Origin: Chrysophaeum taylorii | Taxonomy: Eukaryota; Sar; Pelagophyceae; Pelagomonadales; Pelagomonadaceae | Length of the DNA: 53,049 nt | NCBI GenBank assembly: GCA_029834535.1 | Contig: JAQMWT010000269.1 | Location: 1-53,049, forward strand | Direction of reading: 5' to 3' | Part shown: positions 2,175 to 31,130 of the stretch, in pieces | Layout: every line of letters begins with the position of its first letter | Numbering within the stretch: position 1 is the first letter of the stretch | Notes under the pieces: model-generated | Told to the model about the DNA's origin: nothing | The model's input: only the letters and a program-made list of their open reading frames with translations | Database searches by the model: none | Made by a program: the position numbers and the translations under genes

Positions 2175-2179
2175 TAAAC

Positions 2180-3114: not shown

Positions 3115-3347
3115 ATTAACTAACTAACTTCAGACCTCCCGAGCATGGAGCCAGGCCGGACCGACAGGCCAGTCCGGAATCACGGCCTGAGAGGAGCGCC
3201 GAAAGGTCGGTCGGCGGAGAGTGACCATCGCTTGCGCCATGCGACGAGGAGACAGCGATGGACTGACAACCAACTCGTCGAAACTTCCGTCTTCGCCCCC
3301 CGGCCATACCCCGTCCCACTGCGAACGTTCCGGCTGCCAACCGCCCC
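3115..3347 (-). mobile_element. SINE copy S1 nested in the copy A RT gene
   Basis: On the minus strand this short element ends in a GAAGTTAGTTAGTTAA tail and matches the other SINE copies at 26703-27106, 41954-42321 and 44518-44865. It is truncated at its 5' end. A 13-bp target duplication, ccccatcataata, flanks it at 3102-3114 and 3348-3360. It splits the RT coding region a few codons after the VDD active site. It has no coding capacity of its own that I can support. Confidence 0.88.
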
Positions 3348-3367
3348 CCCCATCATAATATCGCCCG

Positions 3368-5402: not shown

Positions 5403-7437
5403 TTGGAAGCCATTGAACCTCTTCATATCGGCGGCGGATCTCCGCTTCGGTGATCTCGCGGCATTTCTTTTCATCTTCTTCCGACCTTCGAGCGAAATCG
5501 TCGCTGCCTTCAGGTCGTTTGAGGGTGGACTTGTCCGCCATCGCGGTCGTAGCGTCCTTCTGCACCGTGCTCAGCAGCATCGGCGGGGGAGATTCGTCGC
5601 ATCGCGTCAAGTGACTAGCGACAGAAACGGTGAAAGAAAGGTTCCCCTTGTCGTATCCTTCTTCACATTCTTTCGTAAGTTCGTTGATCGTAGAGACGTT
5701 CAACTCATCTTCGTACCTAACGATATCGCCAATCGCAAGGACTTCGCCTTGAGTGACGACCGTCGGCACTTCTTCCGTGGCAGTAACCGCCACCCGAGCA
5801 GCGGACCGGTCGCGCTCTTCGCAAGAAGAACACATTCCTTCGACAACTCCCAACTGCTCGTTCTCAGCAAACTTAGCGACGAAAACATGTCCCATCTCCA
5901 TAGGTTTCGACAAAATAACCGGTAGATTGTAAGTTCGACCGGACTCGATTTGAAGCGTGCGCGCAGCATAAGCTACTACTTCTCGCGCGTCTTCTCCCGG
6001 AGCTGGAGAGAATTTGGTCGTAGCATGTCCCCGCGTAGCCAAGGCTACCGTACGTTCCGGCGGCGGGCTTCGGAGATCTTTAATCGTGCTCAAACGAGCG
6101 TAAACTCGAGTCTTGACCAGGTCGAGACTCTTCCGAAAGGCATCATGTTGATGATTGTAAATCGGGACGGTTATCGGATCTCGATCGTAAATAGATCGAA
6201 AGGTCACGATTGGTGCATCGATTCGTTCATCCTTGAACTTAATCTTCTTGCGCCCGTAGACGACTTGGGTTCGATAAAAACAGATTCGATCGTGGGGGTA
6301 GTCCACGACGGCTCCTAAAACTCGTATATCGCGCCCTTCAAACAGGAACAGACAGTTCGTATCGGCCACAATAGCGACAATGGGGGCAGCGAAGTCGTCG
6401 GCGAAAGCGACCCGAATCGCGATCCAACGATAGATCGTCGTCGTATTCAACCCTGATCCGTACAGCTTGCGCTTAATCGGAAGTTCGCCTTCATCGAAAA
6501 TCAACTGATCTTTGGTCAACTTTGGGACCATTTCTCGGCAAATATAAGAAACATCTGCCATTCCATCGACACCGATGGTCGTCGAGAATTTCGGTCCGTC
6601 ACGATTCCTGTAGATGTGACAGGTCACGTCACGATTCCTGTAGATGTGACAGGCTATAAATGTTAGAGTACCCGTATCTAAACAACTGAGGGTAATCAAA
6701 TCATCTTCGATCGTCTTGCCGTCTCGCGGCGTCAACGAAGTGTGAGCACATCGGGCTCTGACTCGCTCATCTCCAGGGTTGGGCATCGATACCGCGGCTT
6801 GAGCTTTCGTATTATCTGTTGTTGGCGTCTTCGCCATAACGCTCGCGGCAGCCTCTTTATCTGGCGGCTTCCGCTCTTCCTCCAAGACAATCTCCGAGGG
6901 AATAAACGCTGGTAGGGGATCCTGGTCTTCGTAATCCTTGGAAGCCAACGACCCCTCCCATAAATCATTCATTTCGTCGTTCCAGAATGCATCTGTGAAT
7001 TCATTCGTCGCCTGCTGATCCTCATCAGCATCGGCGATCGGTTCCGTGTCAGCTGCGGCTTTGAGTCTGCAGCTGCGCGGTTGTTCTGGTGGCTTCTTTA
7101 GCAAGAAATTCCGAGCTTTCGTCCACCAATCCTGCAGGTTCCACGTCGGCTCGTCTTCGTCCCGCTTGAGAACGCTGCTAATCTTTTTCATAAATCTATC
7201 CTTTTCTTCCGGCGGCGTATCCGTGTCTCGATCCGTAGTAACCGAAACCGTTTCGGGGGGGTCCGCAGGAAAAGATGGCGTCGTCCCCGACGTTAACTCT
7301 ATCGTAAAATCGTCGTCTGCATTACTCGCGCTGGTCATCGTCTCGTCAGTCGAATGCGCGCACGAGCTATCACTGCAGAAATCCATGTCTGGCTCACAGC
7401 CAGTTCGGTCGCCAGCGGTCGTCTCTGGAGGGTCCAA
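5302..7437 (-). CDS. Protease-like and linker region of Gypsy copy A pol
   Basis: This open frame of 711 codons begins with an acidic, low-complexity N-terminus of about 240 residues. It then has a retropepsin-like stretch with GVDGMADVSYI where a DTG or DSG loop is expected. A downstream FLFEGRDIRVLGAVVDY resembles the hydrophobic-hydrophobic-Gly closing motif of retroviral proteases. Residues of about 430-620 (IESGRTYNLPVILSKP through TQGEVLAIGDIVRYEDEL) look like the beta-rich domain found between protease and RT in many Gypsy elements. The last 70 residues are charged and lead towards the methyltransferase in another frame. The DGM substitution makes protease activity uncertain. Confidence 0.75.
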   Translation of the reverse strand: MDPPETTAGDRTGCEPDMDFCSDSSCAHSTDETMTSASNADDDFTIELTSGTTPSFPADPPETVSVTTDRDTDTPPEEKDRFMKKISSVLKRDEDEPTWNLQDWWTKARNFLLKKPPEQPRSCRLKAAADTEPIADADEDQQATNEFTDAFWNDEMNDLWEGSLASKDYEDQDPLPAFIPSEIVLEEERKPPDKEAAASVMAKTPTTDNTKAQAAVSMPNPGDERVRARCAHTSLTPRDGKTIEDDLITLSCLDTGTLTFIACHIYRNRDVTCHIYRNRDGPKFSTTIGVDGMADVSYICREMVPKLTKDQLIFDEGELPIKRKLYGSGLNTTTIYRWIAIRVAFADDFAAPIVAIVADTNCLFLFEGRDIRVLGAVVDYPHDRICFYRTQVVYGRKKIKFKDERIDAPIVTFRSIYDRDPITVPIYNHQHDAFRKSLDLVKTRVYARLSTIKDLRSPPPERTVALATRGHATTKFSPAPGEDAREVVAYAARTLQIESGRTYNLPVILSKPMEMGHVFVAKFAENEQLGVVEGMCSSCEERDRSAARVAVTATEEVPTVVTQGEVLAIGDIVRYEDELNVSTINELTKECEEGYDKGNLSFTVSVASHLTRCDESPPPMLLSTVQKDATTAMADKSTLKRPEGSDDFARRSEEDEKKCREITEAEIRRRYEEVQWLPITSQGGDAVQWSRSQYFRSPTSQRNVGRRFESC
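6597..6653. repeat. 30-bp-period tandem duplication in copy A protease region
   Basis: The sequence gtcacgattcctgtagatg recurs 30 bases later. It keeps the frame and duplicates the peptide CHIYRNRD just before the protease loop. Copy B lacks this duplication. Confidence 0.9.
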
Positions 7438-8349
7438 AGATAAGCCGATGGCATCGAGGGCTTCCTCATCAAAAATAAACGGTGGGTCATCCGTGGACGA
7501 TCTTCCGAATCTGAATCGCCTTCCCAGTATCGTGGAGCTTCAAGTTCCTCGCTCGAATCTTCGAGCTCATCGCTCGACATCTGCTCATAAATCTGTGCCA
7601 AAGACCGACGATTGGTCAGCACGTCGTTGGGTGGCTCGTCCATCGGTGGGCGAGCAAGATCTTCGAATGCGGCCGCGGCAAGGGCGTCGGCTGCGTCGTC
7701 GGTGCGGGTGTCCGTGTTCGGGTACACCGTCACTCCTAATGGTAACTGTTGACCGCAAGGGGTCGTAAATGCGAACGTTGTAGACGACTGTCCCGAGTCT
7801 TCTCGGTAACGACCATCGTCCGAATCGCGATCGCGAGATCTTCGTCGCCGGCGGCGGCGTGAATGTCTGCTAGAGCTCCTGCTATCTTTCCGTCGGCGCT
7901 GGTACGAGCTGCTACGGCTCTTGTCGTGGCGTCGGGGGCTCCGGCTATCTCGACGGCCCGGTCGTGTCGAAGACGATCGGCCGTGTCCATCTGTTAAGTG
8001 CTTCGCGGTATCCATAACCGTGGTTAGCTGCGTGCCCATATCATTGAGTCTGCTCTGAATATCGTGAGCAGCGCTCGAACCGAGGGTGGCATTAGAACTG
8101 CCGTCGTCACGCGAGTGATTATTTTTCCTTTGTCGGCTCTCCCATCGTCCTCGCGAAATGGGCTTTCTGCCGTCTTCGATGTATTTGCACATCGCTACAT
8201 AATAGTGGTCGGGCTCGCGGTTGCAAATGACGCGGTTCCCGTGTTCATCCTTGTCGTGGGTCGCTAAGAAAAACCCACAGTCCCTGCACGTCCTCTCGAA
8301 CCACTTTTTCGGATTCTCTTCGAGGCGTAAGGCTTCATATTTCGCCGTT
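7335..8349 (-). CDS. Zinc knuckle plus RS-rich nucleocapsid-like region, copy A
   Basis: The frame opens after a stop near 8350 and overlaps the end of gag by about 85 bases in a different frame. Its first 40 residues hold a compact zinc-binding-like pattern (CRDCGFF, HDKDEHGNR, ICN). Residues after about 105 form a strongly Arg-Ser-rich tract (SRSPRRHDKSRSSS, then SRDRDSDDGR). The middle matches copy B (SSTTFAF, TDDAADA) and the end is acidic (SSDELEDSSEELEAPRYWEGDSDSE cut short here for length). A zinc knuckle after capsid fits a nucleocapsid that packages element RNA. The RS tract resembles those of splicing factors, which is unusual for this position. No ATG marks the start, so frameshifted expression from gag or decay are both possible. 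Confidence 0.72.
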
Positions 8350-9808
8350 TATCTTTCGTTCCCGATACAAGAGCTCGTCCTCCGCGTCCAGGCGGCGGCT
8401 TCAGCGGCTTCCCGCTCGAGGGGTTCATTGAGTTTCGGCTGTTCTTCTCCGCCATGGCTGTTGCGAAGTCGTTATCGAGCCGCGTAATCAGCGACAACGT
8501 AGACGTAAACGTCTCATACGTCGTCGGGTGTTCGCTGCGCATCGTTCGCACGCGGGATTTCAATTCGCTGGACTCCAGTCCGCGTATCAAGTAAGATGTG
8601 ATCTCCACATCGTTGAGATCTCGGTTGGCCACGGAACAGTACGCCATGGCTTCTTGCTGAAATTTAATGCAATACGTATGCACGTGACGTTCTCCAGAGA
8701 GTTTCGGAACGGTCGCTTGGGTCGTGCATTGTAACTTTCGTAATGACTCATCTGCCGTCACCGGCAGCAGACAACTCTCTCGGAAATATTTCAAAATCTT
8801 GAGGCAATACTTCTCGTTCAATCGTCGTGATCGTCGTACCACGGAACCGTACTCCTCATCGTCGATATCCTGACGTAAATAGAAAGACGCTGGGTGATCG
8901 ACGTCTTTACACAGGTCGTCATACTTCTTTAAGTGTTCCCGAAAAATCGGTGCGACTGTGTCGCGCAGGGTCGCGGGAAGCAGATATCGGAGTTTCTCCA
9001 AGCTGAAATGGTCTTCGGCTAACGTGCTCATCACCGCGCCCGCATCTAAATCGAACTGGTCCTGATCGCGTCCATCGAGAACCAGTTTGAAAGTTTCGGT
9101 TTTTAATCCAGAGGTTGATCGCCGCTCCTTGTTGCGATCGCGTTTAGCTAACGCGCTGGCGAGTCGATCCGCAAAACCCATCAAGAACTCTTGGGTGTCG
9201 ATCTTCCCGGCGCCACGCGTCTCCTCCTTTTCTTCTTCATCATCGTCTTCATAGCGCGGCTTCCTAGCTTTCGCGCGTGATCGTGTAGTCGGCGGCTCTT
9301 CCTCAGCTCGGGACTCCGGGCTGCTCGCTCGCCTTGATCGACTCGGCGTACGCAACTCGTCTCTTTCACGGGTCAACGAGCTTACTTGCTCTTGGAAGGC
9401 GTCTGCTCGAGCGTTGGCCCGACGCAGTTGCTCTATTAGTTCTTCTTTCTCCTTCCGTTGTAGCAGTTCTTTTCGTTCGTCGTCTTCCCCTATTTGTTTT
9501 AAAAGTTGTTCTTGCGCGCGTTCGTTCTCTTCGCGTAATTCCCGCAAGCGAGCTTCATAGAACTCATTCATTATCGTTGCGTCCGGGGGTTCTGCACACG
9601 CTGACGGAGCTGTCGATCGTCCTCCCGTCGGTCTCTCCGTGGGCTTGCCGTCGTTGTAGTCTAGCTCATCTTCCTCGTCAACTTCTGTATCGTGCTCTTC
9701 TTCATCGTCATCATTATCATCATCGTCATTCCGCTCGTTCGTCTCATCCTGACGGCTTGGCGGTTCTTCATATCGTAGCTGCTCGACGGCAGCATCATCG
9801 TCTTCCAT
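8264..9808 (-). CDS. Gag-like polyprotein of Gypsy copy A
   Basis: This is an intact 514-codon ORF and the first gene after the 5' LTR. Residues 1-75 are very acidic with Asp/Glu runs. Residues of about 85-160 form a charged coiled coil (REENERAQEQLLKQIGE, ELIEQLRRANARADAF). Residues of about 225-470 form a capsid-like helical domain conserved in copy B (KLVLDGRDQDQFDLD, LRDTVAPIFREHLKKY, SRVRTMRSEHPTTYETF). Gag proteins assemble into the particle where reverse transcription occurs. The ATG at 9808 is the natural start, about 240 bases inside the element. The last 45 residues are read in a frame that skips the zinc knuckle, so they may not be the native end. Confidence 0.82.
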   Translation of the reverse strand: MEDDDAAVEQLRYEEPPSRQDETNERNDDDDNDDDEEEHDTEVDEEDELDYNDGKPTERPTGGRSTAPSACAEPPDATIMNEFYEARLRELREENERAQEQLLKQIGEDDERKELLQRKEKEELIEQLRRANARADAFQEQVSSLTRERDELRTPSRSRRASSPESRAEEEPPTTRSRAKARKPRYEDDDEEEKEETRGAGKIDTQEFLMGFADRLASALAKRDRNKERRSTSGLKTETFKLVLDGRDQDQFDLDAGAVMSTLAEDHFSLEKLRYLLPATLRDTVAPIFREHLKKYDDLCKDVDHPASFYLRQDIDDEEYGSVVRRSRRLNEKYCLKILKYFRESCLLPVTADESLRKLQCTTQATVPKLSGERHVHTYCIKFQQEAMAYCSVANRDLNDVEITSYLIRGLESSELKSRVRTMRSEHPTTYETFTSTLSLITRLDNDFATAMAEKNSRNSMNPSSGKPLKPPPGRGGRALVSGTKDKRRNMKPYASKRIRKSGSRGRAGTVGFS

Positions 9809-10029
9809 ATCGGCTCTGGCTCGTTCTAGTCGGCCGAGATCAGAGCGGGTCCAAACTGGTTGAATCGTCGTCGCTCTCGACCTCCTTCGACTCTGGAACT
9901 TCTAATCGTCCACGACACGCGTAATATCGTCATTGCGTGCGTCTTCCACCGACAAATCTATCCGTGCGGTGGCGGGCAGAGCTCGTCTAGATGCACTAGT
10001 TCGTTGCGACCGATATAGTCGCTCGAATC

Positions 10030-10047
10030 TCGTATTCCTCCACCACC
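10030..10047 (-). other. Putative primer-binding site of Gypsy copy A
   Basis: In element sense the bases just inside the 5' LTR read ggtggtggaggaatacgag. The TGGTGGAGG part could pair with a tRNA ending CCTCCACCA, and copy B has the same TGGTGGAGG at the same place. I cannot assign the tRNA. Confidence 0.5.
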
Positions 10048-10382
10048 TGTGGCGTAAGGAGAATTTTAGGGGCTACCTGGCGTGCCTTCGAATCCTGGCT
10101 CGCCGCTCGCATCCGTGCCCTTGGTGGGGTCACTGGACGAGGATGGCCGTTCTCCCGCCACCCGACCACAAACAACTCCCGTGCCTGGTCTTCTCAACTT
10201 GAGGACCGGCTGTTGCTTTATGATCAAGGATATATCGAAAATCAGAAATCAGGGTGACGCATGTCACGGAAAAGGAAGATGATGTCATGGAGAACACTGA
10301 CATCATCAGAACGGAGTAGGGTGCCCCTGATAAGGGGGGCCCTAGAAGAGGGGTAAGCCTTAGGAGGCGGGAGTTGCCGCCA
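10048..10382 (-). repeat. 5' LTR of Gypsy copy A
   Basis: In element sense this LTR begins TGGCGGCAACTCCCGCC at 10382 and ends near CGCCACA at 10048. It matches 1-317 and is slightly longer through small indels. The difference between the two LTRs shows that the insertion is not very recent. Confidence 0.88.
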
Positions 10383-11272: not shown

Positions 11273-11311
11273 AACGACCTCTGGGTTTTAGCTCCCATTG
11301 CACAGGCGCCT

Positions 11312-11543
11312 CGTTCTGTATTTTCCGCTATTCGTTGCTCCACCCCTCGTCCTGTATTTCCCCCTCGTCGTTGCTCCTCTCCTCGTTCTGTCTTTTCACC
11401 TCGTCGTTGCTCCCCTCCTCGTTCTGTATTTCGCCTATTCGTTGCTCCACTCCCCGTTGTGCATTTTCAGCTATTCGTTGATCCACTCCCCGTTGTGCAT
11501 TTTCACCTATTCGTCGATCCACTCCTCGTTGTGCTTGTCGGTT
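11312..11543. repeat. Tandem repeat of about 36-39 bp in the short Copia element
   Basis: About six degenerate units contain cgttgctccac and cctcgttctgtattt. The array occupies the place where gag would be expected. It creates apparent ORFs on both strands that are products of the repeat. Confidence 0.85.
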
Positions 11544-14726: not shown

Positions 14727-15889
14727 TTAGAGAACGGCGTTGTTACCCGGGAGCTGGCGAGAAGCCCCAGCGCTGGCATGGGCTGCACGGGCGGCTGTCT
14801 GGCGAAGATGACGGTGGGGTTCCTCTTCGCTCTCCTTCCTCTCCTCGTCGTCGTCGCCGTCGTCCATCCGTTGGTGATTCCGCTCCGCTCTCGTCCTCTT
14901 CGCAGCGGCCTTGACGGCGTCGTTGCGGCCACGCTTCATTTTGGGCCTTCCGCGAGGCCGTCGGACGGCGAGCGGCTTGGTAAGGGCCGTCTCGGCCGGG
15001 ACCACCGAGCCAAAGTCTGGCACAGGCAACTGGCCGGCGGCAAGGTACAGAGACTTCATCAGGGCCGTCGTGTCGAGGCGCGAGACGCACTCCTGCAGCG
15101 TCTTGCCCGCGCACTCATTGATAACAGCGGCAACGTGAATGCACGGAAACTCGTCGACTTGGGGTCCGCCACAATCGCAGGTTGGGCAGTCGTGGTGGAT
15201 ATTCACGTGGAAGATGCGTCGACTGCAGAAGGCGCGCGCCTGCCCCCCCCCCCCGCCAGACCAGGCGATGCGCGTCACTTGATCCCTCGCGGCGACTTCG
15301 ACCTCGGCGAGCTTGCCGATCGCTTTTGTCGTCGCAAATGTCGACATGCTGCTCGCCTCTGCCGCATACTTGTCAATCTTCTCCTCGCTCATCTCGACGA
15401 AGCGAACAAGTGCAGCAGCCGGGTCCTCGATTTCCCGATCCTCCTTTAGCAGAGACCAGAGCGACTCGACCTGGTTTGAGGTGTGCTTCTTGTGGTGGAG
15501 ACCCGCGTTCTGCAGCGCGCACTGAACATCTCGTGGGAACTTGTCCACGAACGATTTTTCCTTCGGCGAGAGCTTATCGTACGCAACCTGTTGTGCGTGC
15601 TCGCTCGTCGCCTCCACCTGTGAAACATGTGTCGCTAACACGAGATTGACAACATTGAGAGTGAGAAAAGGCGACATTGCGAGACTCGGACGAATACGAA
15701 GCTGAAGTACCGATCCTCGCCTCCCTTGGTGCCGGATTTACCGGCGAGCAAGATTCCTCTGTGCTCCTTGCACAGAAACATGCGTTCACGATGAATTTCA
15801 TTCTGAATAGCGGCAGCACCGCCCTTATCGCCGTCGACGATGAACATGGTGGTGGCCGTGTCGATCTTTTTCCTCGCCGTAGTACTCCT
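14727..15889 (-). pseudogene. MULE-type transposase, C-terminal half with SWIM zinc finger
   Basis: The upstream part (about 15635-15860) contains MFIVDGDKGGAAAIQNEI and FLCKEHR, which resemble the Asp and C-x2-H region of Mutator-like DDE transposases. After one frame change the 316-codon ORF at 14727-15677 carries a SWIM zinc finger, CDCGG then EFPCIHVAAV, near 15128-15192. It then has an AT-hook-like RRPRGRPKMKRG and an acidic tail. MULE transposases excise and insert DNA by a cut-and-paste mechanism. The gene stops at 15889, where the LTR of Gypsy copy B begins, so the N-terminal half was displaced or lost. Confidence 0.8.
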
Positions 15890-16209
15890 TGCAGAGGCAA
15901 CTCCTGACCGCTAAGGCTTACCCTCCCTTCTCGAGGCTTGATACCCGTTCAACGGGACGCCTTTTCCTACTTCCCTAGTGACATCATACCTCTCCCTCGT
16001 GAGAAGCATTCTTGCAGTATTCTTGTAGCATTCTTGCTATCATATACCATCTCTCCATCTTGTTGAGAGGCTTGGTGAGCGTGAGCAAGGTGTGTGGCGA
16101 GCATAACCGACCCCGAGTCCGAGTTTTTCTCGTTCAGTGAGGTCTAGGACGAGTCGGTGAGTACCCCCTTTGTCACCCGGGGGCCGGGAGTGGCTTTTCT
16201 GTGCCGCCA
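15890..16209 (+). repeat. 5' LTR of Gypsy copy B
   Basis: It matches 25825-26143 closely, with a limited number of substitutions. It ends CTGTGCCGCCA. The first ten bases differ from the 3' LTR (tgcagaggc against tggcggc). Just inside it lies tggtggagg, the putative primer site shared with copy A. Confidence 0.88.
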
Positions 16210-16749
16210 TACGTGGTGGAGGATATGAGATCGTGCGACTACATCGGTCGCCGACGAACGAGTGCTGCCGTACGTATTGTATTACGTGGTCCGGATTTGC
16301 ACGTGTGCCCAGATCAAGCACGCGGAGTTCCAGTGGACCGGTTTGCGTTGAGAATATACGCGAACTTTGTTATGTTCGTGCGTTCCGAGAGACGACGAAC
16401 ACGCGTGCGAGTTGGAAATCGCAGCGCAGTCACCCCGGGAATTGATTTTGGTATAGCTGAACGGCGGAAGCGAGTGGGATCGCTACCCACTGGCATTTTG
16501 GATTGCCAGCGGATTGGAATTCCGTGAGTGCTGTTTTTACAGCGACAGATAGCGTTGTTGGGATCAACGTGCATTACTTCGAGTGATCGGGTCCGGACGT
16601 GTTTCGAGATTCCTCATCGACCTTGATACATTGTGGATACAGACGCAGACGTGCGTGAGGACGAATCTCCTCCAGTTCTTCCCGCCGCCCCTGAGATAGG
16701 CCGCGAGGAAGGTGAATGAAGAGAGGCCGAGGCAGTCGACGTTGCTGAC

Positions 16750-18027
16750 TTGCCCCCTGACGTGGCTCCGGATACTGCCATTTTTTCGCCGTTGAGTCCA
16801 ACGACCCCGGACCGTGGCGAGCGTGTTACGATTGAGCGCGGATCTGCAGCCCGAAGTCGACTTCGTGAAGACCTCGAGCGGAGACGTCGCGAAAATGAAC
16901 GATTAGCTGAGCGTTTTGCCCGTGAAAGGGCTGAAGCGAAAGAGGAAGCGGCTCGACGAGAAGCTGACATGCTCAATGGCGCATTGCAGTAAGAGATTGA
17001 GACAACGAAGACCCTACGTGAAGAGGTTGAACGATTTCGTCGTGAACGAGATGAATTGTTAGCCGAACGTACGCGTCGTGAGAGTAGCCGCGAACGACCC
17101 GTGAGTCGACCCGAACCGGAAACGCCCATGAGGCAGCCTGAACCGGAAAGGAACACTGAAACGGGGGATGAACCTCCGCCCCGAGTCGATACGGAGACGG
17201 AGGGCAGGGCGGAAACTGAGGATGAAGGTACGAAATTTTTACGGGGATTATCGCGGGGATTATCGCGAACGGTTGCGGACGCCTTCGATAAGGCCAACTT
17301 GAGCCGATCCCGTCGCCCCACTTCCAGTTTGAAGCCTGGCAACTTCAAACTTGTCATCGACGGCCGAGATCAACGGCAATTCAATCTGGATTCGGCAGCG
17401 GTGATGCATACTTTAGCTGATGACCATTACTCGGTCGAGAAACTACGTTGCCTATTACCGGTGCATTTGCGGGATACCGTTGCACCAATTTTTGAGGAAC
17501 ATTTGCGGAAATACGAGGAGCTCTGCGATGAGCTACCGTACGGTCCGTCGTTTTACTTGAAATTGGATGCTGATGACGAAGAGCATGGAGCCTCGGTTCG
17601 TCGCATCCGTCGTCTTAATAAGACGTATTGCGACAAAATTCTCGATTATTTTAGATCGACTTGCCGACCTCCGAGCACGCAGCAGGAGCTGCTCGATAAG
17701 CTGCGGAAGGTCACGCAGGCTTCAGTTCCGAAGAAGTCTGGGGGGCGGCACGTACAAACGTATTGTACCAAATTTCAAAGTGAAGCTGTGGCTTTTTGTA
17801 CCGTGTCCAGCCGCACGATGGATGACGCTGATATCGTCGACCAGCTTATCAGTGGTCTGGCGTCCAAGGAACTGCGGACCCGTGTGCGGACTATGAGGAG
17901 CGGACATCCGGATAGTTATTTGACTTTCAAGTCGATGGTGGCGCATATTACGCGACTCGAAAACGACTTTCGAAAGTCGATGGAGGAGGAGAAGGACCAA
18001 GGGCCTCCTAATCCGAAATCGAATTAA
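16750..18027 (+). pseudogene. Gag-like region of Gypsy copy B
   Basis: The frame contains an N-terminal coiled coil (RLREDLERRRRENERLAER), then an in-frame TAA at 16990-16992, then continues to 18027. Another in-frame TGA lies upstream near 16718, and no ATG opens the frame. The capsid-like domain is well conserved with copy A: KLVIDGRDQRQFNLD, LRDTVAPIFEEHLRKY and RVRTMRSGHPDSYLTF. A TAA at 18025-18027 separates it from the zinc-knuckle frame, which is in the same phase. With three stops this gag cannot give a full protein without readthrough. Confidence 0.82.
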
Positions 18028-19426: not shown

Positions 19427-20109
19427 TTGTCTGGACCCTCGTACACTTACGTTCATAGTTGGTCATATTTACAGACGACGAGAGACGGGCCGAAGTTCGC
19501 AACGACGTTAGGCGTGGATGGAATGGCTGATGTCTCCTGTATTTGTCGTGGGATGGTCGAAAAACTGACAAAGGATAATACAGTCCTTGACCGAGGCGAT
19601 CTCCCAGTCGAGCGCACCCTGTACGGGTCAGGATGGAATAAGACGACTATCCACAAATGGGTCGCATTGCGAATTGCGCTCGCGGACGACGTGGCCGTTC
19701 CAGTGGTTGCCATTCTGGCCGATACTAAACTCCTATTTCTGCTGGGAACGCTCGATATTCGGATGTTGGGTGCCATAGTGCACTACCCGCGAAATCGCAT
19801 TGCGTTTCTCCGCACACAAGTCGCTTAGATCTCCCAGTCGAGCGCACCCTGTACGGGTCAGGATTGAATAAGACGACTATACACAAATGGGTCGCATTGC
19901 GAATTGCGCTCGCGGACGACGTGGCCGTTCCAGTGGTTGCCATTGTGGCCGATACTAAACTCCTATTTCTGCTGGGAGCGCTCGATATTCGGATGTTGGG
20001 GGCCATAGTGCACTACCCGCGAAATCGCATTGCGTTTCTCCGCACACAAGTCGCTTATGGGCGCAAGAAGTTAAAGGTACAGGATCGACGACTCGATTCT
20101 CCGATTTGA
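19427..20109 (+). pseudogene. Aspartic-protease-like domain of Gypsy copy B
   Basis: The domain shows LGVDGMADVSCI in the place of the DTG/DSG loop and LLGTLDIRMLGAIVHYP near its end, as in copy A. It is interrupted by a 230-bp tandem duplication that introduces a stop after the first unit (19826-19828). The second unit then leads into VAYGRKKLKVQDRR. Retropepsins act as dimers to cut the polyprotein. Both family members share the DGM form, so this is a family trait rather than a mutation of one copy. Confidence 0.7.
19598..20057. repeat. 230-bp tandem duplication in copy B protease
   Basis: Bases 19598-19827 are repeated at 19828-20057 with only a few differences. The duplication creates a stop at the junction. 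Copy A has a single copy of this segment. Confidence 0.95.
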
Positions 20110-21890
20110 CGTTCAGAACAACTTATGACGAGCGCAACCCCGTGGTAGTTCGGGTTTATGGGCAACAGCACCATGCGACGCAAAAGAACCTGAGCACAGT
20201 TGAGAACCGCGTCTGCGCTCGCTTGTGCAATATTGAAGACCTCCAGCGTCCACCGCCGAAACGAGCGGGAGCTTCGACGACTTGGGGAGTCCCTACAGTT
20301 ACGCCTTCTCAAAGTTCGAACAGCGATGCCTATGAAGTGATAGCCTATGCTGCGCGCACGATGAAGGTCGAGCCTGGGTGCACCTACTGCGTGCCAGTCG
20401 GTCTTTCATCGCCCATGGAAACCGGGCGAGTTTTCGTTGCTACGTCTTCTGGATACGAGCGACTTGGGGTAGTCGATGGAATGTGTTCTTCTCCCGAGGA
20501 TCATGATAAGTTCGCAGCTCGAGTGGCGATCTCCTCTACCCAGGATGTGCCGACCGTGATTACTCAAGGTGAAGTTCTCGCTTTGGGCGATATTGTTCGT
20601 TTTGAGGACGAGCTGGATGTTGAAACGGTCTACGATTTAACGAAGGGTGGTGAAGCCGAATCTGACAAGGCTAACCTATCATTCACTGTTTCGGTCGCAA
20701 GCCATCTGACTCAAGGCGATGCGGCTCCCGAACCGATGCTTTTCAGCTCGGTGCAGAAGGCGTCTCCTTCTGCCGGTAAGAAGAAGAATTCTCGTCAAGA
20801 ATCGCTCGGTAACGACGATTTCGACCGACGAACTGACGAGGAGGAAAAGAAATGCCGAGAAGTTACAGAAGGCGAGATTCGCCGAAGGTTTGAAAAGGTC
20901 CACTGGGTGCCGATCACGTATCGCAAGGTTGTGATGCTCTTTAGCGGCGCCGGAGGAAGTACTTTAGGACTGCAACGAGCGAACGAGTTGTGCGGGACGT
21001 CGTTTCGAGTCGTCCTTGCTCTTGACTCTTCGACAGCTGCCAACAAGGTTCATCAGAAGAATTTTCCGAAGATACCTGTGGTTCAGCACACGCTCTGCGG
21101 ACGATATGACTCGACCCTCCGATTGATCAAGGCTTATTTGCCTGAAGCGGAATGGTCATCGTCGATGTGTATAGCGTCTCCACCCTGCGTTCATTCAGCA
21201 CTCTGCAACTTGACATCCAGAGATGTTGGCAGGGGAGTTACGGCCACTAATTGGACGATGAAGCTGTGCAAAATGGCTGGCTTCATGATGTGGCTGATTG
21301 AACAGGAGGCGTCCATTATTTCTTATATAGCGCGCTTACACCCTTACGTGTACGTCGTCAATTTTCATGATATCACGCCCACTTTGATGAGCTCTCGCGT
21401 GCGATTGTTGGTTTCCAGTCACCCACTGCACTTGCAAGAGGCTCCGAAGACATGTGCGAATATGCAACAAAAATTTGCTGCAGCTTTAGGTTACGCTCAT
21501 GAACGCCACCTGCTCCAGCTGAATAATCTCGGCTCGTCCCGAGAAGCAACAGATACGGCTTACACCGTTACGCGAGTTCCTCTTCGTTTGGGACCGCATC
21601 GCTCGGACACTCAGCCTTTGACTCTCGAGATGACGGCCGAGTTGCTCACGATGCCGGTGGACCATGATTGGGCTAGCTTGTCTAAGACAGATTCGTTCAA
21701 ACATTTAGCGTCTGTCGTCCCTCCAGACACTCTTGCGATTTTAGCAGTCGATCTGCACAACTCCGTGACCAGAGGTTTCCGCCAAAGTGGCGAAGTCCTG
21801 CCGACCGCGTTGAGCCCGACAGATCGATCCTTGAGCAGTATTTGCGAATCTCCGACACCACCTTTCGTCACGTACAGATTCCGCTGTTAA
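20106..21890 (+). CDS. Pol linker domain fused to a DNA cytosine-5 methyltransferase, copy B
   Basis: This is an uninterrupted ORF of 594 codons. Residues 1-265 are the beta-rich linker that follows the protease in Gypsy pol. Residues of about 272-590 form a C5 methyltransferase. Motif I is VVMLFSGAGGSTLGL near 275, and motif II is LALDSSTAANK. The motif IV nucleophile is Cys361 in ASPPCVHSAL. A motif VI-like Glu399 lies in WLIEQEAS. Motif VIII is SSRVRLLVS with Arg431 and Arg433. Motif IX is LTLEMTAELLTMPVDHDW, and motif X is ASVVPPDTLAI. The order and spacing fit the family, which moves a methyl group from S-adenosylmethionine to cytosine C5. The loop PPCV in place of PPCQ and IEQ in place of ENV are divergent. 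The last few codons are read past a likely frameshift near 21830. Confidence 0.88.
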   Translation: MTFRTTYDERNPVVVRVYGQQHHATQKNLSTVENRVCARLCNIEDLQRPPPKRAGASTTWGVPTVTPSQSSNSDAYEVIAYAARTMKVEPGCTYCVPVGLSSPMETGRVFVATSSGYERLGVVDGMCSSPEDHDKFAARVAISSTQDVPTVITQGEVLALGDIVRFEDELDVETVYDLTKGGEAESDKANLSFTVSVASHLTQGDAAPEPMLFSSVQKASPSAGKKKNSRQESLGNDDFDRRTDEEEKKCREVTEGEIRRRFEKVHWVPITYRKVVMLFSGAGGSTLGLQRANELCGTSFRVVLALDSSTAANKVHQKNFPKIPVVQHTLCGRYDSTLRLIKAYLPEAEWSSSMCIASPPCVHSALCNLTSRDVGRGVTATNWTMKLCKMAGFMMWLIEQEASIISYIARLHPYVYVVNFHDITPTLMSSRVRLLVSSHPLHLQEAPKTCANMQQKFAAALGYAHERHLLQLNNLGSSREATDTAYTVTRVPLRLGPHRSDTQPLTLEMTAELLTMPVDHDWASLSKTDSFKHLASVVPPDTLAILAVDLHNSVTRGFRQSGEVLPTALSPTDRSLSSICESPTPPFVTYRFRC

Positions 21891-22257
21891 ATACGCGTAC
21901 TCGTGTCGTTAAGTGGGTGTCAAAAGATGATCTCCAGGATCCCACTAAATGGGAACCGCCAGAAGTCCCTATGCTTCCGCTTCCAACAGATGCGCCGGGA
22001 CGGCTCTTGCTTTTTCTGCTGGGCACCCCCGACAATTAAAACTGGACGTTCCGCCGGATCCTGAACCTGAACAGGAGCCGAAAGTAAGGAGCGAGCCGAA
22101 TGTGCGCGTCAAAGGTGAAAAGATCAATAAGAGCCACCCTGAGGTGAGGTTCAAATACGAAGAAAGTTCGATGTGCCATGGAAGGATGCGCCGCGCGATG
22201 CGGACGGTGTACCGTTACCGCAGACTCCGGAGCACGTCAAGGACAATGAGGCGATGA
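21842..22257 (+). pseudogene. Linker between methyltransferase and RT, copy B
   Basis: Two frames (21842-22039 and 21949-22257) carry PLLNTRTRVVKWVSKDDLQD, then DVPPDPEPEQEPK and VRVKGEKINKSH. In copy A the same stretches are in one frame with the methyltransferase. No fold is recognisable. The charged, proline-rich make-up suggests a flexible hinge, possibly with a protease cleavage site. Confidence 0.65.
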
Positions 22258-23200
22258 AAGTCGTAACTCCGACGAAGGAAGAAGTCGAAAAGGCTGTTCG
22301 AGAATTGGGAATTCCCGACAACCCGCATCTGGATGAGGATGCGAAGATGATGTTGAGCCACTGCGTGCAATACGCGTGGGCCTTTTTTGATCCGATTATT
22401 AGACCCGTGGACTCACCACCGGCATCTCTACGATTTAAAGACGCAAACCCACGACCGATCGAGATGACGCCTTATAGGTTGCGCCAGCAAAGCCCGAGTG
22501 TCTCAGAAAGCAGATCACTGAGTGGTGTCGCGATGGAGTCATCCGACCGGCGAACTCTCCGTGGGGATTCCCTGTACTGATGCTGCCTACAAAGGGAGCA
22601 GAGGCCGGGACGTCGAATGCTTTTCGTGCTGCAGTTGACTTGCGTCAGCTCAATGATCAGCTGGTCAATGACAGTTGGCCGAATCTTCGTCAAGATGACG
22701 CTTTGGCTTTTCTTGCCATGCGCCGTTGGCGGACGTGCATTGATATTCGATGGGGTTATCACAACCTACGTTTGGACGCCGCCGCTCAGGACGCCGTTAC
22801 GATGGTTAGTCCACTTGGAGCCCATAGTTTCTTGCGCTTGCCTCTGGGAGTAAAAACAGCAGGAGCTCTCTTCTGTAAGCAGATGGCTAGCGATTTGTCC
22901 ACATGGATGTATAAGAACTTGGTCGCGTTTGTCGACGATATTATGATGGGATCGGATGAACTCCACCGACATTTACAAGTTCTGATTGAAGTGCTGTGCC
23001 ATTTAGCGCAGCGAGGATATAGTGGACGAACTTCGAAGTTCCACCTCCTCAAGGATGAAATCGAGTTTTTGGGACACATTTCGACTCCGGAAGGCTGGAA
23101 GCCGAATCCCAAGACGCTAGACGCGTTGCAGCAGATGCCGATTCCCGGTACGTTGCCTAACACGTCCCGAAGACCCATATTCGATCTTTCATCGGCATGA
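22173..23200 (+). pseudogene. Reverse transcriptase of Gypsy copy B
   Basis: The frames 22173-22580 and 22580-23200 together cover the RT, with a frameshift near 22485. Motifs seen are AAVDLRQLNDQL, CIDIRWGYHNLRLD, LPLGVKTAGALFCKQM and the catalytic FVDDIMMG near 22929-22950, followed by FHLLKDEIEFLG. The second frame ends at 23200 through a frameshift in the thumb. This is the sequence that allows the SINE-split RT of copy A to be recognised. Confidence 0.92.
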
Positions 23201-24100
23201 GCAACTATTGCCGCCGATATGTGAAAAATTATTCGAAGACTGTGGAGCCGCTTAGGCGATTGTGTCTTGAAGGTGTTAAGTTTGAGTGGACGCCTGAGTG
23301 TCAAAAGGCATGGGGCACGATCATCGAAGCTTTGGTGGACTCTCGCGGAGTTTATCGTCCTGACTACGATCTTCCTTTTCAGATCCGCTCGGATGCTCCC
23401 AAGGATGGTCTGGCCGCGCATCTTTTTTAGCTCGTGGAAGTCAAGGACGAAACCGGCAAGGTGACTCGAGAGGAACGAGTAGTTGAGTATTGGAGCCGAG
23501 CTGTGCCGAAAGAGATGCGGAACTATGAGCCTCGCCGGCTAGAGCTACTGGCAGTTATTCTTTCTCTTGAGCCATTCCGCTCTTATATCGAAGGTCACAC
23601 GACGATCCTTGAAACGGATCATCGCAACTTGACGTTTTTACGAAAGGCGAAGCACTCGTCTGGGCAGTTGGCTCGATCGATGCGGCTCGCCAATTTTGAT
23701 CCTGTATTGGGTTACAAACTAGGGAAGTCGCCGGGAATGAGTATCCCTGACTGTCTCTCTCGCAATCCTATAGATCATGTCATCGAGACGGACGAGTTTG
23801 GTGAACCCATGAACCACGCGTATCTAGCGTGCCAAGAACTCCCTCGTTCTGTTGATGATGAGGGAGTACCTTTACCTGGGTGTCATGTCATTCTGTCGTT
23901 TGTTACGACTGAGTTGCCTGTGGAGGAAGAGAAAGAAGACCTCGATGATCCGATGCAATTGGTCACGTCTCATGCTACGAGACAACGTCAGAAGCAACGT
24001 CTGCACACCCAGCCTAGTATTTTCCGTGATGCCGATGATTACCAAGAGTACATCGACAAGATCCCGGATAATTTGACTTTGGAAGAGATAGCCAAAGAGC
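23197..24100 (+). pseudogene. RT thumb and RNase H of Gypsy copy B
   Basis: The ORF at 23197-23430 contains NYCRRYVKNYSKTVEPLRR and then FQIRSDAPKDG, the start of RNase H. An in-frame TAG at 23428-23430 is followed by the same frame from 23434, with VVEYWSRAVPKEMRNYEPRR and ETDHRNLTFLRKAKHSSGQL. RNase H removes the RNA strand of the hybrid. The single nonsense change is the main defect in this part. Confidence 0.86.
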
Positions 24101-25840
24101 AGATCACTGATGCTACTTGCGAGGACATTCGTTATCGCATGGCTCAGGGCCATTCTCTTCGTCGGTACGGAGCCAATTATCGCTATCGAGTGGTGAAAGG
24201 AGTTCTCTACCGTGCCGCACCTGACTTGCACCCGATGATAGTCGCACCCCGAACTTCACGGACGCGCATCATCCGATTGTACCATGACACACCTCTCAAT
24301 GGTGGTCACATGGGTCGTCAAAGTACAGTGCAGTCGATACTTGAACGTTTTTGTGGCCCCACATGTCTAATGAGGTGGGTGCTTATATTGCTGGTTGCAT
24401 AGTGTGCAAGAAAGCTCGCACGCCTGAACCAAAGAGAGCAGGTCTTCTTCAGCAACCGGTGTATGATGGTGACTGCACCGTCCTTTGTATGGGTTGTTCG
24501 GACCTTTGCCCAGTGCTGGTCCCGAGACATATCTGATCATCTTTTTTGATCCATTTTTTCATTTCTCGATTCTCGACGTACTACACCATAAGACTGCTGA
24601 GTCAATCCTCGAGTCTTTTGTCGCGAATATATTACTCAAAGGTTATCTACCTCAGAGGATTCGCACCGACAATGGGAAAGAGTTCGTCAACAAATTGATG
24701 GGGGAGTTTCGTCATCTCTTCAATGTTCGGTATAGTACCACGATTCCGTATCATGCTCAGGCTAATCCTGCGGAAAGGGTCAACCGCTTTATCAAGGCTT
24801 TCCTCCGTGCGTGTCTTCAAAACCGCAAGATCACGGACTGGCCCGAATTCGCGGAGTACATTGCTTTTTGCTACAATCGCAAGTTTATTCCGGGAACTCG
24901 GATCTCACCTTTCATGCTTCGTCTCAACCGGCAGCCTCTATTGCCAACAGATTACACGATCATGGATCTTGATGTCCGCCGCCGGCCGAAAACTCGCTCC
25001 GATGTTGTGGCAGAGACTCGCGAGAGGCTGAAGTTCTATACCGCTACGGTGAACGAAGCTCGCGAGAAGGCTCTTCGTAAACAACGTCTCGCTTACAATG
25101 CGGACCATGTCGATGTGGAGTATGAAGAAGGTTCACATGTTCTGCTCTACACCCCTTTTCTTCAGAACAAGCTTCGACCGGAATGGCGCGGTCCATTCGT
25201 TATTTTGGAGCGCTTGTCTCCGGTCACTTACAGGATTGAGTCTCTTGATTCTCCTCCTGAACCCTGCTGCGTTCATGTTAGTCAGATCACCCCTGTGATG
25301 GTTTCTCCAGTGGTCGATCGAGCTGTGCCTAAACCCACGGAGACCTTTCGGGATGATTACAAGCATGGTAAGTTCGTTATCTTTCGGATTCCAGATAACA
25401 AACCGTCCGATTGGCGAAAGAAGATTTACGTCGCTGAAGTTTATGAACCCTATGATTTTGTGAATGATCGAGTCGCTCTGCATTTTTATGCTGATCTTGG
25501 TCCCCATGACAAGGTTTCTTATTACAAGCCTACCTCGCATCTCTCTACTCGTAAGCTTAAGCCGGAATACAAGGACGCGGACGGTCGCAGTTTCACCGAC
25601 AAGACCAAGGTCAACAACAGTACCACTCCTTGTGTCACCGACTTCGCCCCGCATGAGATCGATGTGTTGATTCCTAAGTTCACTTTGCGTAGTGGACGCG
25701 TTCCCGAGCCTGTCGTTGAACGTGTCTACAAGAAGATTCGTTCTCGAGATGCTCATTCCGCCAAGGCCCGTGATTCTCGCCGGACTCGCGGAGGGCAGCT
25801 CGTATTCTCACCAGGGGAGTCCTGTGGCGGCAACTCCTGA
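24101..25840 (+). pseudogene. Integrase of Gypsy copy B with SH3-like C-terminal domain
   Basis: The HHCC zinc module lies at about 24270-24415 (YHDTPLNGGHMGR, then CIVCKKAR), broken by a frameshift near 24350. In the core, the second catalytic residue is in RTDNGKEF (24662-24684) and the Glu in NPAERVNRF (24763-24789). The first Asp is lost: copy A has MDL where copy B has an altered MG sequence near 24490. A GPY/F-type WRGPFVI is at 25183-25203. The C-terminal 200 residues include KIYVAEVYEPYDFVNDRVAL, which looks like an SH3/chromo-like beta barrel. The stop codon lies 16 bases inside the 3' LTR. Confidence 0.87.
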
Positions 25841-26143
25841 CCGCTAAGGCTTACCCTCCCTTCTCGAGGCTTGATACCCGTTCAACGGGACGCCTTTTTG
25901 CTACTTTCCTAGTGACATCATACCTCTCCCTTGTGAGAAGCATTCTTGCAGTATTCTTGTAGCATTCTTGCTATCATATACCATCTCTCCATCTTGTTGA
26001 GAGGCTTGGTGAGCGTGAGCAAGGTTTGTGGCGAGCATATCCGACCCCGAGCCCGCGTTTCCCTCGTTCAGTGAGGTCTAGGAGGAGTCGGTGAGTACCC
26101 CTCTTGTCACACGGGGGTCGGGAGTGGTTTTTCTGTGCCGCCA
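25825..26143 (+). repeat. 3' LTR of Gypsy copy B
   Basis: It begins TGGCGGCAACTCC and ends CTGTGCCGCCA, matching 15890-16209. The purine-rich accaggggagtcc lies just upstream and is the likely polypurine tract. The pol stop codon TGA is at 25838-25840, inside the LTR. Confidence 0.88.
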
Positions 26144-26473
26144 TAGCCACCGCTGCTAAGTTCTGCGACACAGGAGCCATCGTCGGCGGCACTGATATCA
26201 TCGGCACTGATGTCATCGGCGGCACTTTCTGTCTGCAGCACGCTCAAATCTAGCTTGGCAACAACTCCGGAGACTGGAGCGCGCTGCTTGCGGCAGGAAA
26301 GGATTATGTGCGCCAACTTCTTACCTTGCTTCGACCGTGCCCTTGACTTCTCGAGGGTGCCGAGCGGGTTGAGGAGCGCTTCCTTCCTGTCGTCCAACCT
26401 TCAAACTGCCCGCGAGCTTCAAACCGAAAGGGGTAACCGCCAGGGGGAAGGAAAGCAATGTGAAGCAACTCAA
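26144..26473 (-). other. Right flank of Gypsy copy B with a minor ORF
   Basis: The minus-strand ORF of 96 codons at 26107-26397 starts outside and runs into the LTR. It contains the repeated peptide SADDISADDISAADD and a basic KSRARSKQGKK. It could be a remnant of the MULE gene interrupted by copy B, because it has the same orientation, but I find no family signature. Bases 26400-26473 show nothing recognisable. Confidence 0.35.
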
Positions 26474-28535: not shown

Positions 28536-31130
28536 CTAGTCGGGGTCATCGCCGAGTCGTGGGGCAGGCGAAGAGAGGACGGGGCCCGCCCGTAGGTCGC
28601 ACGCATGCTGCCGCCGGACGTATGTGCGACGAAGGGTGATGTCCTGCTGGGATCGGGCGGCCTGGGTGGGGTTTCCCGAGGCGGCGACATGGGTGAGGGC
28701 GGTGAGGGCACAGCGAGCCCGGCCTAATGCGTTGGCGATCCCCCACTCACGGTAGATGCGGCGAGTTTGGGCCGCCTTTGCATTTGTGAAGTTGGCGCAG
28801 CCGCTTGCCAACCAGGTTCGCGCAGCGATGCGCTCTGCGCATGTTTGGGCGAGAGCGTGGCACGCCGCGCTGGCCTCACCGAAGGCACCAAAGACGAGGC
28901 CGGCGACGGTGCCGTAGCTACGTAGCCGCTGTTCGACAGGGCCCAAGAAGCCAGGCGGTGGTGCTGTACCCGGCTGGGGGATGATGGCGTCGATGCCGCG
29001 GGCGTGAGCGAGGTATTCGGAGTGGACTTGCGCTGCGCGCCGATCGACAGGCGACGGGTGGGAGGGATGGAGGGCGTGGGCGGTGTAGAACGAACCCCAA
29101 GCGAGGGTTTTGATGTCGTAGAGCTGCTCCTTGTTGTCGAGCGTGGTGAGGATGTCTGGGACGACGTGGCGACGGGCGAGATTGCCTCGGTACCGGCCGT
29201 AGAGGCGCGTGCGAATGGTAGGGGTGGTGACGTCAGCAAAGATGCCGAAAACCTCGGACAGGGCTGGGATGCCGGACTCTTTGACGCTGCAGAGGACGCA
29301 CTCGAGCTGGCCGTCATGCCAGGTGGTCCGCGCTCCTCCGCGGTTGAGAAGGTTGGCCTGCGTGAGGAGCACCTTGCCGTGAGCGTCGAGAACGACGTCA
29401 GTGCCCAGAATGCGAGTGCCCACGAGGCCCGAACAAGCTGGAGAGGGGTAGCCAAAGTACTGGGCACACATCTCAGCCCAGCAGCGGTTGGGGATTTGAA
29501 GGGCGGAGCTGGGCCACGAGCGGATGAACGTGGTCGAGAAGCGATCCCATGAGGACGCCGCTACTCGAAGTGCATCGGTGATGGGAAGGGTGGCCGCAGG
29601 GCGCTGGAGGGCAGTGGCCCGAGCTGTCTCGCGCTGGGAGGTTAGAGCACGCTGGAGTTGGGGTATGAGCACGGGTGTCGAGATGGTGGGGTCGACGAGG
29701 ACGCCCATGGAGACGAATTCGTGGGAGAGAGGACCGTCGACGAGATGAACGTTGGCGGGGTCGCCGGAACCAGCGCCGCCGTGGGAAGCCAGCGTGGTAC
29801 GGAGATCAGCCCGAAGTCCGTCCCACGCAGTCTCGAGTGCTCGCCCCAGACGGCAACCGGATGCGAGGAGGTGGTGCCAACGGTGCAACTCGTTACCCGT
29901 GCGAAAAGAAGTGGCACCCAGGACCGAGGCGAGGCGGGGGAGGTAGCCAGGGACCTCCACGGCACCCGTAGGATCGCGAAGGTCGACGAGGTGTGGGAGG
30001 GCCTGGGCCGCCGTGCCAACAAAGGCGGCGGGGCTGAGGTCGGCGCAGGAGCGAATGCCGCCACCCCCACTTCGAGCAGGAAGACGGAGGCGTTGGAGGA
30101 CGATGTCGGTGGAGTCAAAAACCTGACGCGGCTCTGCGCCAAGTGATGTGGCGACGAAGCTGAGGACGGCAACGTCGAAGCGGCGGAGCGCGTTCAAGGC
30201 ATTTGTGGGGTAGCAGTGTTGCGCGGTGTAGTCCATGCACGGGGCGATGCAGTAGCGGCCCAACGAGTACATGCAGTGGAGGGAGACGTTCTGGAGCTTG
30301 GTGCGAATCGTGCTCATAGAGCTCACCTGAGCGTCAACCTCGCGTTGCAAGGTAGCTTCGACATAGGCATCTCCGGCGTGTCCGGGGGAGCCGATGGGTA
30401 CACCGTAGATTACGAGGCCGTCGACGACAACGGGGATACCAGCAAGAGTACGCGTGCCGTCAGGCGCAACTTGGACGTGGTCGTGAACATCGGGGTGATC
30501 GAGAAGACCCATGCCAAGTACCGGACAGAACGCCACGCACTTGTCGAGGCGGAGCTCCTCGCCGCTAGCTTGGATGTCGCGGGCGTACTGCAGGAGGGCG
30601 TCGACAACCTCACGAGGGGAACCAGAGATGACGCCGTCGTCCATGCCAAATCGTGCGTAGCCGGCACATGAACGTAAGCGGGTGTCAAGGGCCTGTGCGG
30701 CGTCATGCGTTGCCAGACAGTACGCCGGTGGATAGGTGGGGTCGCCTTGCTGGCCGCCTTCTTGAGAGTCGAAGGGGGCGCGATCGAGGCCGGTGGGGCC
30801 GTGGAGGGCCACCCAGGATGCCGGCCGTAATTGCTTGAACATAAAGTGGCCAAAGGCACGCAGCTTAGCGTTGGCGTGGTTTGCGAGTTTGTCCACGACG
30901 GTCCGGCGCTTGAGCTCGTTGAAGGCGTTGCGTTTGTCCAGCTTGATGATGACCTGGTCGGGGTACTGATCCGCGTGGGTGCGGACGCCAAAGACGAGGC
31001 GCGAGGGGCCGCCCTTGACCCCGACGGCAACGTTGATCGGGTACAGTGCCTCAGAGATCTCGGAGTGGAGGCTACGCACAAGGCACCGTCGGCGGATGGT
31101 GCCAATGCCGATAGGTCGAACGTCAGGCTT
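28536..31130 (-). CDS. Non-LTR-type reverse transcriptase with restriction-like endonuclease
   Basis: The ORF at 28536-31079 encodes 847 residues, and a further RT motif (RPIGIGTIRRR) lies upstream across a frameshift. Palm motif A is IIKLDKRNAFNE near residue 46, motif B is EGGQQGDPTYPP near 110, and motif C is RFGMDDGVISG near 145, with GMDD in place of YxDD. The thumb region has YGVPIGSPGHAGD. At the C-terminus are a CVLC pair near 593 and VPDIL followed by LYDIKTL near 640-655, a PD-(D/E)xK pattern. This layout, an RT followed by Cys residues and a PD-ExK nuclease, is that of early-branching non-LTR retrotransposons such as R2/CRE-like groups, which insert at specific sites. The exact clade cannot be set here. 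Confidence 0.75.
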   Translation of the reverse strand, partial: KPDVRPIGIGTIRRRCLVRSLHSEISEALYPINVAVGVKGGPSRLVFGVRTHADQYPDQVIIKLDKRNAFNELKRRTVVDKLANHANAKLRAFGHFMFKQLRPASWVALHGPTGLDRAPFDSQEGGQQGDPTYPPAYCLATHDAAQALDTRLRSCAGYARFGMDDGVISGSPREVVDALLQYARDIQASGEELRLDKCVAFCPVLGMGLLDHPDVHDHVQVAPDGTRTLAGIPVVVDGLVIYGVPIGSPGHAGDAYVEATLQREVDAQVSSMSTIRTKLQNVSLHCMYSLGRYCIAPCMDYTAQHCYPTNALNALRRFDVAVLSFVATSLGAEPRQVFDSTDIVLQRLRLPARSGGGGIRSCADLSPAAFVGTAAQALPHLVDLRDPTGAVEVPGYLPRLASVLGATSFRTGNELHRWHHLLASGCRLGRALETAWDGLRADLRTTLASHGGAGSGDPANVHLVDGPLSHEFVSMGVLVDPTISTPVLIPQLQRALTSQRETARATALQRPAATLPITDALRVAASSWDRFSTTFIRSWPSSALQIPNRCWAEMCAQYFGYPSPACSGLVGTRILGTDVVLDAHGKVLLTQANLLNRGGARTTWHDGQLECVLCSVKESGIPALSEVFGIFADVTTPTIRTRLYGRYRGNLARRHVVPDILTTLDNKEQLYDIKTLAWGSFYTAHALHPSHPSPVDRRAAQVHSEYLAHARGIDAIIPQPGTAPPPGFLGPVEQRLRSYGTVAGLVFGAFGEASAACHALAQTCAERIAARTWLASGCANFTNAKAAQTRRIYREWGIANALGRARCALTALTHVAASGNPTQAARSQQDITLRRTYVRRQHACDLRAGPVLSSPAPRLGDDPD

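Follow-up and report, generated by a model that had tools for sequence, protein, structure and literature searches.

A divergent C5-methyltransferase-like domain within pol of a many-copy Ty3/gypsy-type retrotransposon family

Cytosine methylation is normally directed at retrotransposons, and an element that appears to carry a cytosine-5 methyltransferase (C5-MTase) of its own raises the question of what such an enzyme would do for it. We studied a case of this kind in contig JAQMWT010000269.1 (53,049 nucleotides, the whole of which is called the window here), one contig of a 70.8-Mb, 697-contig genome. A sequence-only reading had proposed that a 594-codon open reading frame (ORF) at positions 20106-21890 of the forward strand belongs to a long terminal repeat (LTR) retrotransposon and encodes a C5-MTase inside pol, between a protease-like region and the reverse transcriptase (RT); the precedents that it named, in dinoflagellates and charophyte algae, are correct (PMC5890265). 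Our sequence comparisons confirm that this part of the window encodes a divergent C5-MTase-like domain in pol of a Ty3/gypsy-type element. The best explanation overall, which we consider probable, is a gag-pol element whose divergent C5-MTase, placed upstream of the RT, acts on the element's own nucleic acid.

The ORF exists as claimed, and the residues named for motifs I, IV, VI, VIII and X are in place: FSGAGG at residues 279-284, PPC with Cys361, IEQ with Glu399, RVR with Arg431 and Arg433, and SVVPP. A search with the C5-MTase profile PF00145, which the sequence-only reading had suggested as its check, gave 24.1 bits for the ORF and 26.7 bits for the domain, above the curated cut-off of 22, with a match that spans motifs I-II only; 14 of 15 family members matched at E <= 0.01. 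When the family was compared by hhalign with 14 C5-MTases, the alignment reached E 1.9e-6, a value equalled by 0 of 100 column shuffles, and against 61 C5-MTases it reached E 1.3e-6. The larger set consisted of 13 sequences and 48 viral loci, the latter being what was left of 64 taken up from 80 once 3 with stops and 13 that were too long had been removed. The significant part of these alignments is motifs I-II, while an alignment against 6 sequences extends from motif I through PPC; the Pro-Cys of the domain aligns with the motif IV cysteine of C5-MTases. The half after motif IV, aligned alone, meets motifs IX-X (E 0.029, equalled by 1 of 100 shuffles; E 0.045 with the larger set). In a MAFFT alignment with 30 of the 48 viral C5-MTases, Glu399 shares a column with the glutamate of all 30. 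Cys361 and Glu399 are 38 residues apart, which is near the usual C5-MTase spacing.

Several results weigh against this assignment. In a strict test for motifs IV, VI and VIII in order, 163 of 400 shuffles did as well as the domain, and only motif IV was placed where the sequence-only reading has it; the proposal of a recognisable series of motifs therefore holds significantly for I-II and weakly for IX-X, but not for these three together. As a result, motifs VI and VIII rest on spacing and on near-fixation in 40 copies, with the MAFFT alignment as a further argument for VI; opposite motif VIII, MAFFT placed residues other than Arg431 and Arg433. The NCBIfam dcm model gave 17.5 bits, well short of the 100.65 at which its cut-off is set. 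The domain has PCV for the usual PCQ, EQE for ENV and Ala-Ser for the Gly-Asn of motif X. No homologue appeared in the protein collection searched with the domain and with a 15-row family alignment, so that the domain has no outside sequence support from that source; searches of viral contigs and of phages were likewise negative. Structure prediction was informative only when C5-MTases were supplied in the alignment, an input that biases the result, whereas AlphaFold on two window rows alone gave an uninformative model; C5-MTases appear in the fold lists, DNMT3A and DNMT3B chains among them, which does not decide for the Dnmt3 clade.

The surroundings of the domain are those of an LTR retrotransposon, as had been claimed: the PF00145 match lies between two LTRs of 95% identity, with RT, RNase H and integrase downstream. 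The window contains two members of a many-copy Ty3/gypsy-type family, copy B on the forward strand, which holds the ORF, and copy A, inverted on the reverse strand and of another subfamily (Table 1). The order RT - RNase H - integrase, that of Ty3/gypsy elements, is found both in the pieces of the window copy and in those of a second locus, L039, with the rve match below its cut-off in both. At L039, the stretch homologous to the window ORF is part of a frame no shorter than 3006 codons whose pieces, searched separately, match methylase (21.9 bits, narrowly under the Pfam cut-off), RVT_1, RNase H, H2C2 and integrase; in this member, a single open frame runs through the methyltransferase domain, RT and integrase. 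As copy B is frame-damaged and the homologous stretch of L039 is internal to a long frame, the TTG "start" of the window ORF, merely the first such codon past a stop, is without meaning. The placement between protease and RT was borne out on the RT side, but a protease beside the domain found no Pfam match in the pieces searched of the window copy and L039.

A search of the genome for the gypsy-borne domain scored at least 74 places and one short fragment. The 74 are a lower bound (there were 1331 first-look candidates), and some of the contigs concerned look like duplicates: matches at near-equal positions and with equal scores in the pairs C10/C297 and C25/C521 suggest duplicated haplotypes in the assembly. 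Identity was 79-100% for 55 places and 69-71% for the other 19, 17 of which are without a stop. Across 40 copies (30 of subfamily A and 10 of subfamily B), Cys361 and Arg431 are kept in 40/40 and Glu399 and Arg433 in 39/40, and 128 of 292 columns are invariant. The ratio of nonsynonymous to synonymous substitution rates (dN/dS) between subfamilies was lowest for the RT (0.03), followed by the domain (0.056, from 287 pairs with a median of 290 codons) and the linker (0.16), in a set that leaves out L009 (the same place as the window copy) and non-gypsy loci; purifying selection between subfamilies implies that the domain matters to the element. Two points temper this conclusion. The between-subfamily ratios are approximate because dS is near saturation (about 2), and the ratios within subfamilies are higher (domain 0.27 in A and 0.19 in B; RT 0.33 in A and 0.27 in B), as expected if copies drift after insertion. 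Stops were present in 6/40 copies of the domain, 9/40 of the linker and 10/37 of the RT stretch. A further degraded copy of the domain, 65% identical to that of the window and with 3 stops in the alignment, was seen at L011:4000-4731.

We propose that cleavage of pol would free the methyltransferase domain, which would travel with the element's particle and, with S-adenosylmethionine as methyl donor, would methylate cytosines in the cDNA or RNA of the element itself during replication, and that this modification may help new element copies to survive. By analogy with the published cases, for which it has been put forward, such self-modification would be the simplest mechanism (PMC5890265). That the domain is catalytically active is a prediction which we regard as reasonably likely; given activity, we would lean towards DNA as the substrate, with RNA quite possible.

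Heavy and lasting methylation of CG sites should have left a mark on the elements. Five gypsy stretches (three with flanks) had an observed/expected CpG ratio of 1.24-1.37, compared with 1.26-1.46 at four loci of host genes; for two further stretches of the window that hold large ORFs it was 1.10 and 1.26, the second being an element with RVT_1. Hence, the gypsy elements show no CpG depletion relative to host-gene loci, nor is there a clear excess of transitions at CG: in 30 aligned copies the values were 0.063 for CG and 0.061 for CHH, 0.046 and 0.038 on the other strand, and 0.046 and 0.056 for CHG. These results count against heavy and lasting self-methylation at CG. Judged from base composition, dense and lasting CG methylation of the family's own copies is unlikely; a non-CG, transient or RNA role would fit better, or the host may repair CG deamination well.

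One alternative, which we think unlikely, is that the enzyme works in the manner of Dnmt2, as an RNA C5-MTase whose substrate is the element's RNA or the tRNA that primes it. The only sequences from the Protein Data Bank (PDB) that matched the domain were Dnmt2/tRNA C38 methyltransferases, the CpG signature of DNA methylation is lacking, and RNA methylation has been raised for LINE-borne enzymes by De Mendoza et al. (PMC5890265). However, the similarity to Dnmt2 is weak, not significant (E 0.17-0.22) and restricted to motifs I-II; the host already has a different Dnmt2 protein (L001, E 4e-39 to human DNMT2), and the fold does not tell DNA from RNA enzymes. A tRNA primer was considered as the methylation target and set aside: the tRNA-likeness of the post-LTR sequence was judged by eye only, no tRNA gene matching it was recognised, a tRNA search of the window found none, and no primer link follows. 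In the genome, 99 of 100 matches to the post-LTR tRNA-like pattern share the form of copy A.

We give a similarly low probability to the possibility that the domain is a dead enzyme, a captured fold kept for nucleic-acid binding or polyprotein folding without methyl transfer. As motifs VI and VIII do not stand out from shuffles and PCQ, ENV and Gly-Asn are altered, catalysis may have been lost with a structural role retained, and the missing CpG signature speaks for this too. What argues against it is that a purely structural role needs neither Cys361 and Glu399 nor the two arginines, each of which persists in at least 39 of the 40 copies from the two subfamilies.

It is less likely still that the domain limits the element, by methylating new copies whose silencing is then maintained by a DNMT5-like enzyme of the host, so that the host is harmed less and the family persists. 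The host has a DNMT5-like gene, and a slowing role is one of the possibilities named by De Mendoza et al. (PMC5890265). Maintained heavy CG methylation should deplete CpG, which was not seen, but this test is weak because it hinges on deamination and repair in the host. Chance similarity, in which an unrelated segment of pol happens to have a glycine-rich stretch, would account for the significance of motifs I-II alone, the failed in-order test and the missing homologues, but is very improbable given that the profile comparisons beat shuffles, that PF00145 matches 14 of 15 members, that motifs IX-X were recovered, if weakly, separately and in the right place, and that the distance from Cys to Glu is near the usual spacing.

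The element proposed here, with a C5-MTase acting on its own nucleic acid, is not the only one in this genome with a candidate enzyme of this class. A PF00145 search of the genome gave 57 matches, the window's own copy not among them. The first is the host Dnmt2 (L001:1498-2577), and the second is the DNMT5-like gene, in which a single long frame holds a C5-MTase and an SNF2 domain (L002 with L147), suggesting maintenance of cytosine methylation in this host. All six further loci that were fetched (L003-L008) contain a Copia-type C5-MTase that has PCQ throughout and ENV in most rows; these eight of the 57 rows are the ones examined singly. Where the surroundings were scanned (L048 and L148), the C5-MTase lies upstream of an rve-like stretch, below the cut-off in both, and of a Copia-type RVT_2 polymerase, and in L148 all three share one open frame. 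This family, like the gypsy family, consists of LTR elements that have the domain ahead of the polymerase, but it differs in its canonical PCQ and ENV and in the position of the domain before the integrase, in the Copia order. Its profile reaches E 1.5e-12 against C5-MTases and fails to match the gypsy domain (E 0.14). We read the two domains as separate captures. A motif IX-X was not recognised after its motif VIII (E 0.13), and no relative appeared in the protein collection searched. In a protein search of the genome with this domain, 113 scored candidates yielded 120 matches, with identities of 60-100%, a number that includes pieces of one copy and likely duplicate contigs. Prokaryote contigs scanned with the host Dnmt2 yielded nothing. 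The CpG ratio of two Copia stretches, 1.01, is lower and compatible with some CG methylation there.

C5-MTases have been described in retrotransposons of Symbiodinium (LINE and DIRS) and Klebsormidium (Gypsy) (PMC5890265). The closest parallel, KnitGypsy-Dnmt3 of Klebsormidium nitens, likewise has a C5-MTase inside the Pol of a Gypsy-type LTR element and under purifying selection; it has a recognisable Dnmt3, a charophyte host, a DIRS-like repeat arrangement and an inconclusive yeast test (PMC5890265), whereas the present domain is divergent (PCV, EQE), lacks relatives in the protein collection and has a host with a red-type plastid. SymbioDIRS-Dnmt3 and SymbioLINE-Dnmt are also many-copy elements with a C5-MTase, and the LINE domains are an orphan lineage too, but these are DIRS and LINE elements of dinoflagellates, SymbioDIRS enzymes methylate CG in yeast, and SymbioLINE elements are CG-depleted (PMC5890265), unlike the present gypsy family. 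A 2025 survey (PMC12344493) repeats the Symbiodinium and Klebsormidium cases and gives "LTR Copia and DIRS" as elements that contain Dnmt3, and carriage by Copia elements may therefore have precedent. Morozov et al., in an opinion paper, name stramenopiles, red and green algae and charophytes as hosts of Ty3/Gypsy and DIRS elements that encode DAM and DCM (PMC6338049); the passages concerned neither separate adenine from cytosine enzymes nor describe a sequence, so that overlap with the present case is undecidable from them. Gypsy elements of orchids have also captured a nucleic-acid-modifying enzyme, but an unrelated one, the RNA demethylase AlkB (m6A), in an additional ORF (PMC9289625), and a brown-alga DNA transposon carries an N4-cytosine or N6-adenine methyltransferase (PMC12477816). 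Our literature searches, with subscription papers and preprints outside their reach, found no paper describing the present gypsy family.

The genome has 84 chlorophyll-binding matches, and the best PDB relatives of an antenna protein are mostly chlorophyll a/c antenna proteins. The large subunit of Rubisco is closest to chains that we take to be red-type. These markers point to an ochrophyte or haptophyte, and the combination of red-type Rubisco with chlorophyll a/c antenna genes means that the host is neither of the precedent hosts in PMC5890265. An oomycete, the first host considered, was rejected on account of the photosynthesis genes; a pelagophyte such as Aureococcus would be a guess. Near-identical light-harvesting genes form clusters on C88, C390, C539 and other contigs, and a light-harvesting-protein ORF adjoins the host Dnmt2 gene.

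The features of both gypsy copies are collected in Table 1. The outermost 5' bases of the 5' LTR of copy B are unlike those of its 3' LTR, and no target-site duplication was recognised there by eye. Between the two inverted copies lie tandem repeats with 36-bp spacing (11286-11535) and an ORF with a SWIM zinc finger (14727-15677), possibly part of a MULE-type DNA transposon. Elsewhere in the window, an 847-codon open frame without a Pfam match (28536-31079) looks LINE-like by eye, and an open frame with RVT_1 (39341-41851), probably a LINE, has many relatives in the genome at 74-95% identity (61 of 1228 candidates scored).

Table 1. Positions in the window of the parts of gypsy copies B and A
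Feature	Position	Strand	Remarks
5' LTR, copy B	15896-16211	+	95% identity to 25829-26145 across 317 columns
Gag-like ORF, copy B	17056-18027	+	by position only; without confident Pfam match
230-bp tandem duplication, copy B	19598-20057	+	upstream of methyltransferase; units 98% identical
Open frame in copy B (pol fragment)	20106-21890	+	linker and putative methyltransferase domain; 594 codons
C5-MTase-like domain, copy B	about 20919-21767	+	contains ORF residues Cys361, Glu399, Arg431/433
RT region, copy B	22163-23200	+	RVT_1 54.4 bits at 22580-23197; homologous stretch in opposite-strand copy
RNase H and integrase zinc-binding region, copy B	23434-24402	+	RT_RNaseH 59.3 bits; Integrase_H2C2 25.3 bits, just below cut-off 25.5
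Integrase core and C-terminal domain, copy B	24485-25840	+	Integrase_p58_C 31.8 bits (cut-off 27); rve 27.4 bits, below cut-off 32.6
3' LTR, copy B	25825-26145	+	short terminal inverted repeat TGGCGGCA...TGCCGCCA (by eye)
Copy A of element	1-10382	-	LTRs 1-317 and 10052-10382, 93% identical
Methyltransferase-like domain, copy A (other subfamily)	4490-5326	-	78% identity to copy B; motif I absent from this frame

In summary, a Ty3/gypsy-type and a Copia-type family of one algal genome carry different C5-MTase domains, a finding that widens a known, seldom described phenomenon. As the gypsy family is not depleted in CG, the question of what its domain acts on (element cDNA, element RNA or the chromatin of the host) and at which sequences becomes directly testable. 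A bolder and rather doubtful extension is that two LTR superfamilies captured different C5-MTases and spread to high copy number, and that the orphan one, re-tooled with PCV, EQE and no Gly-Asn in motif X, acts on the intermediates by which its element replicates, either outside CG or in RNA. If this is true, some property of the host makes it pay for LTR elements in general to modify their own cytosines. With another kind of host added, and unlike enzymes in two of its LTR superfamilies, what has been a curiosity would become a recurrent strategy.
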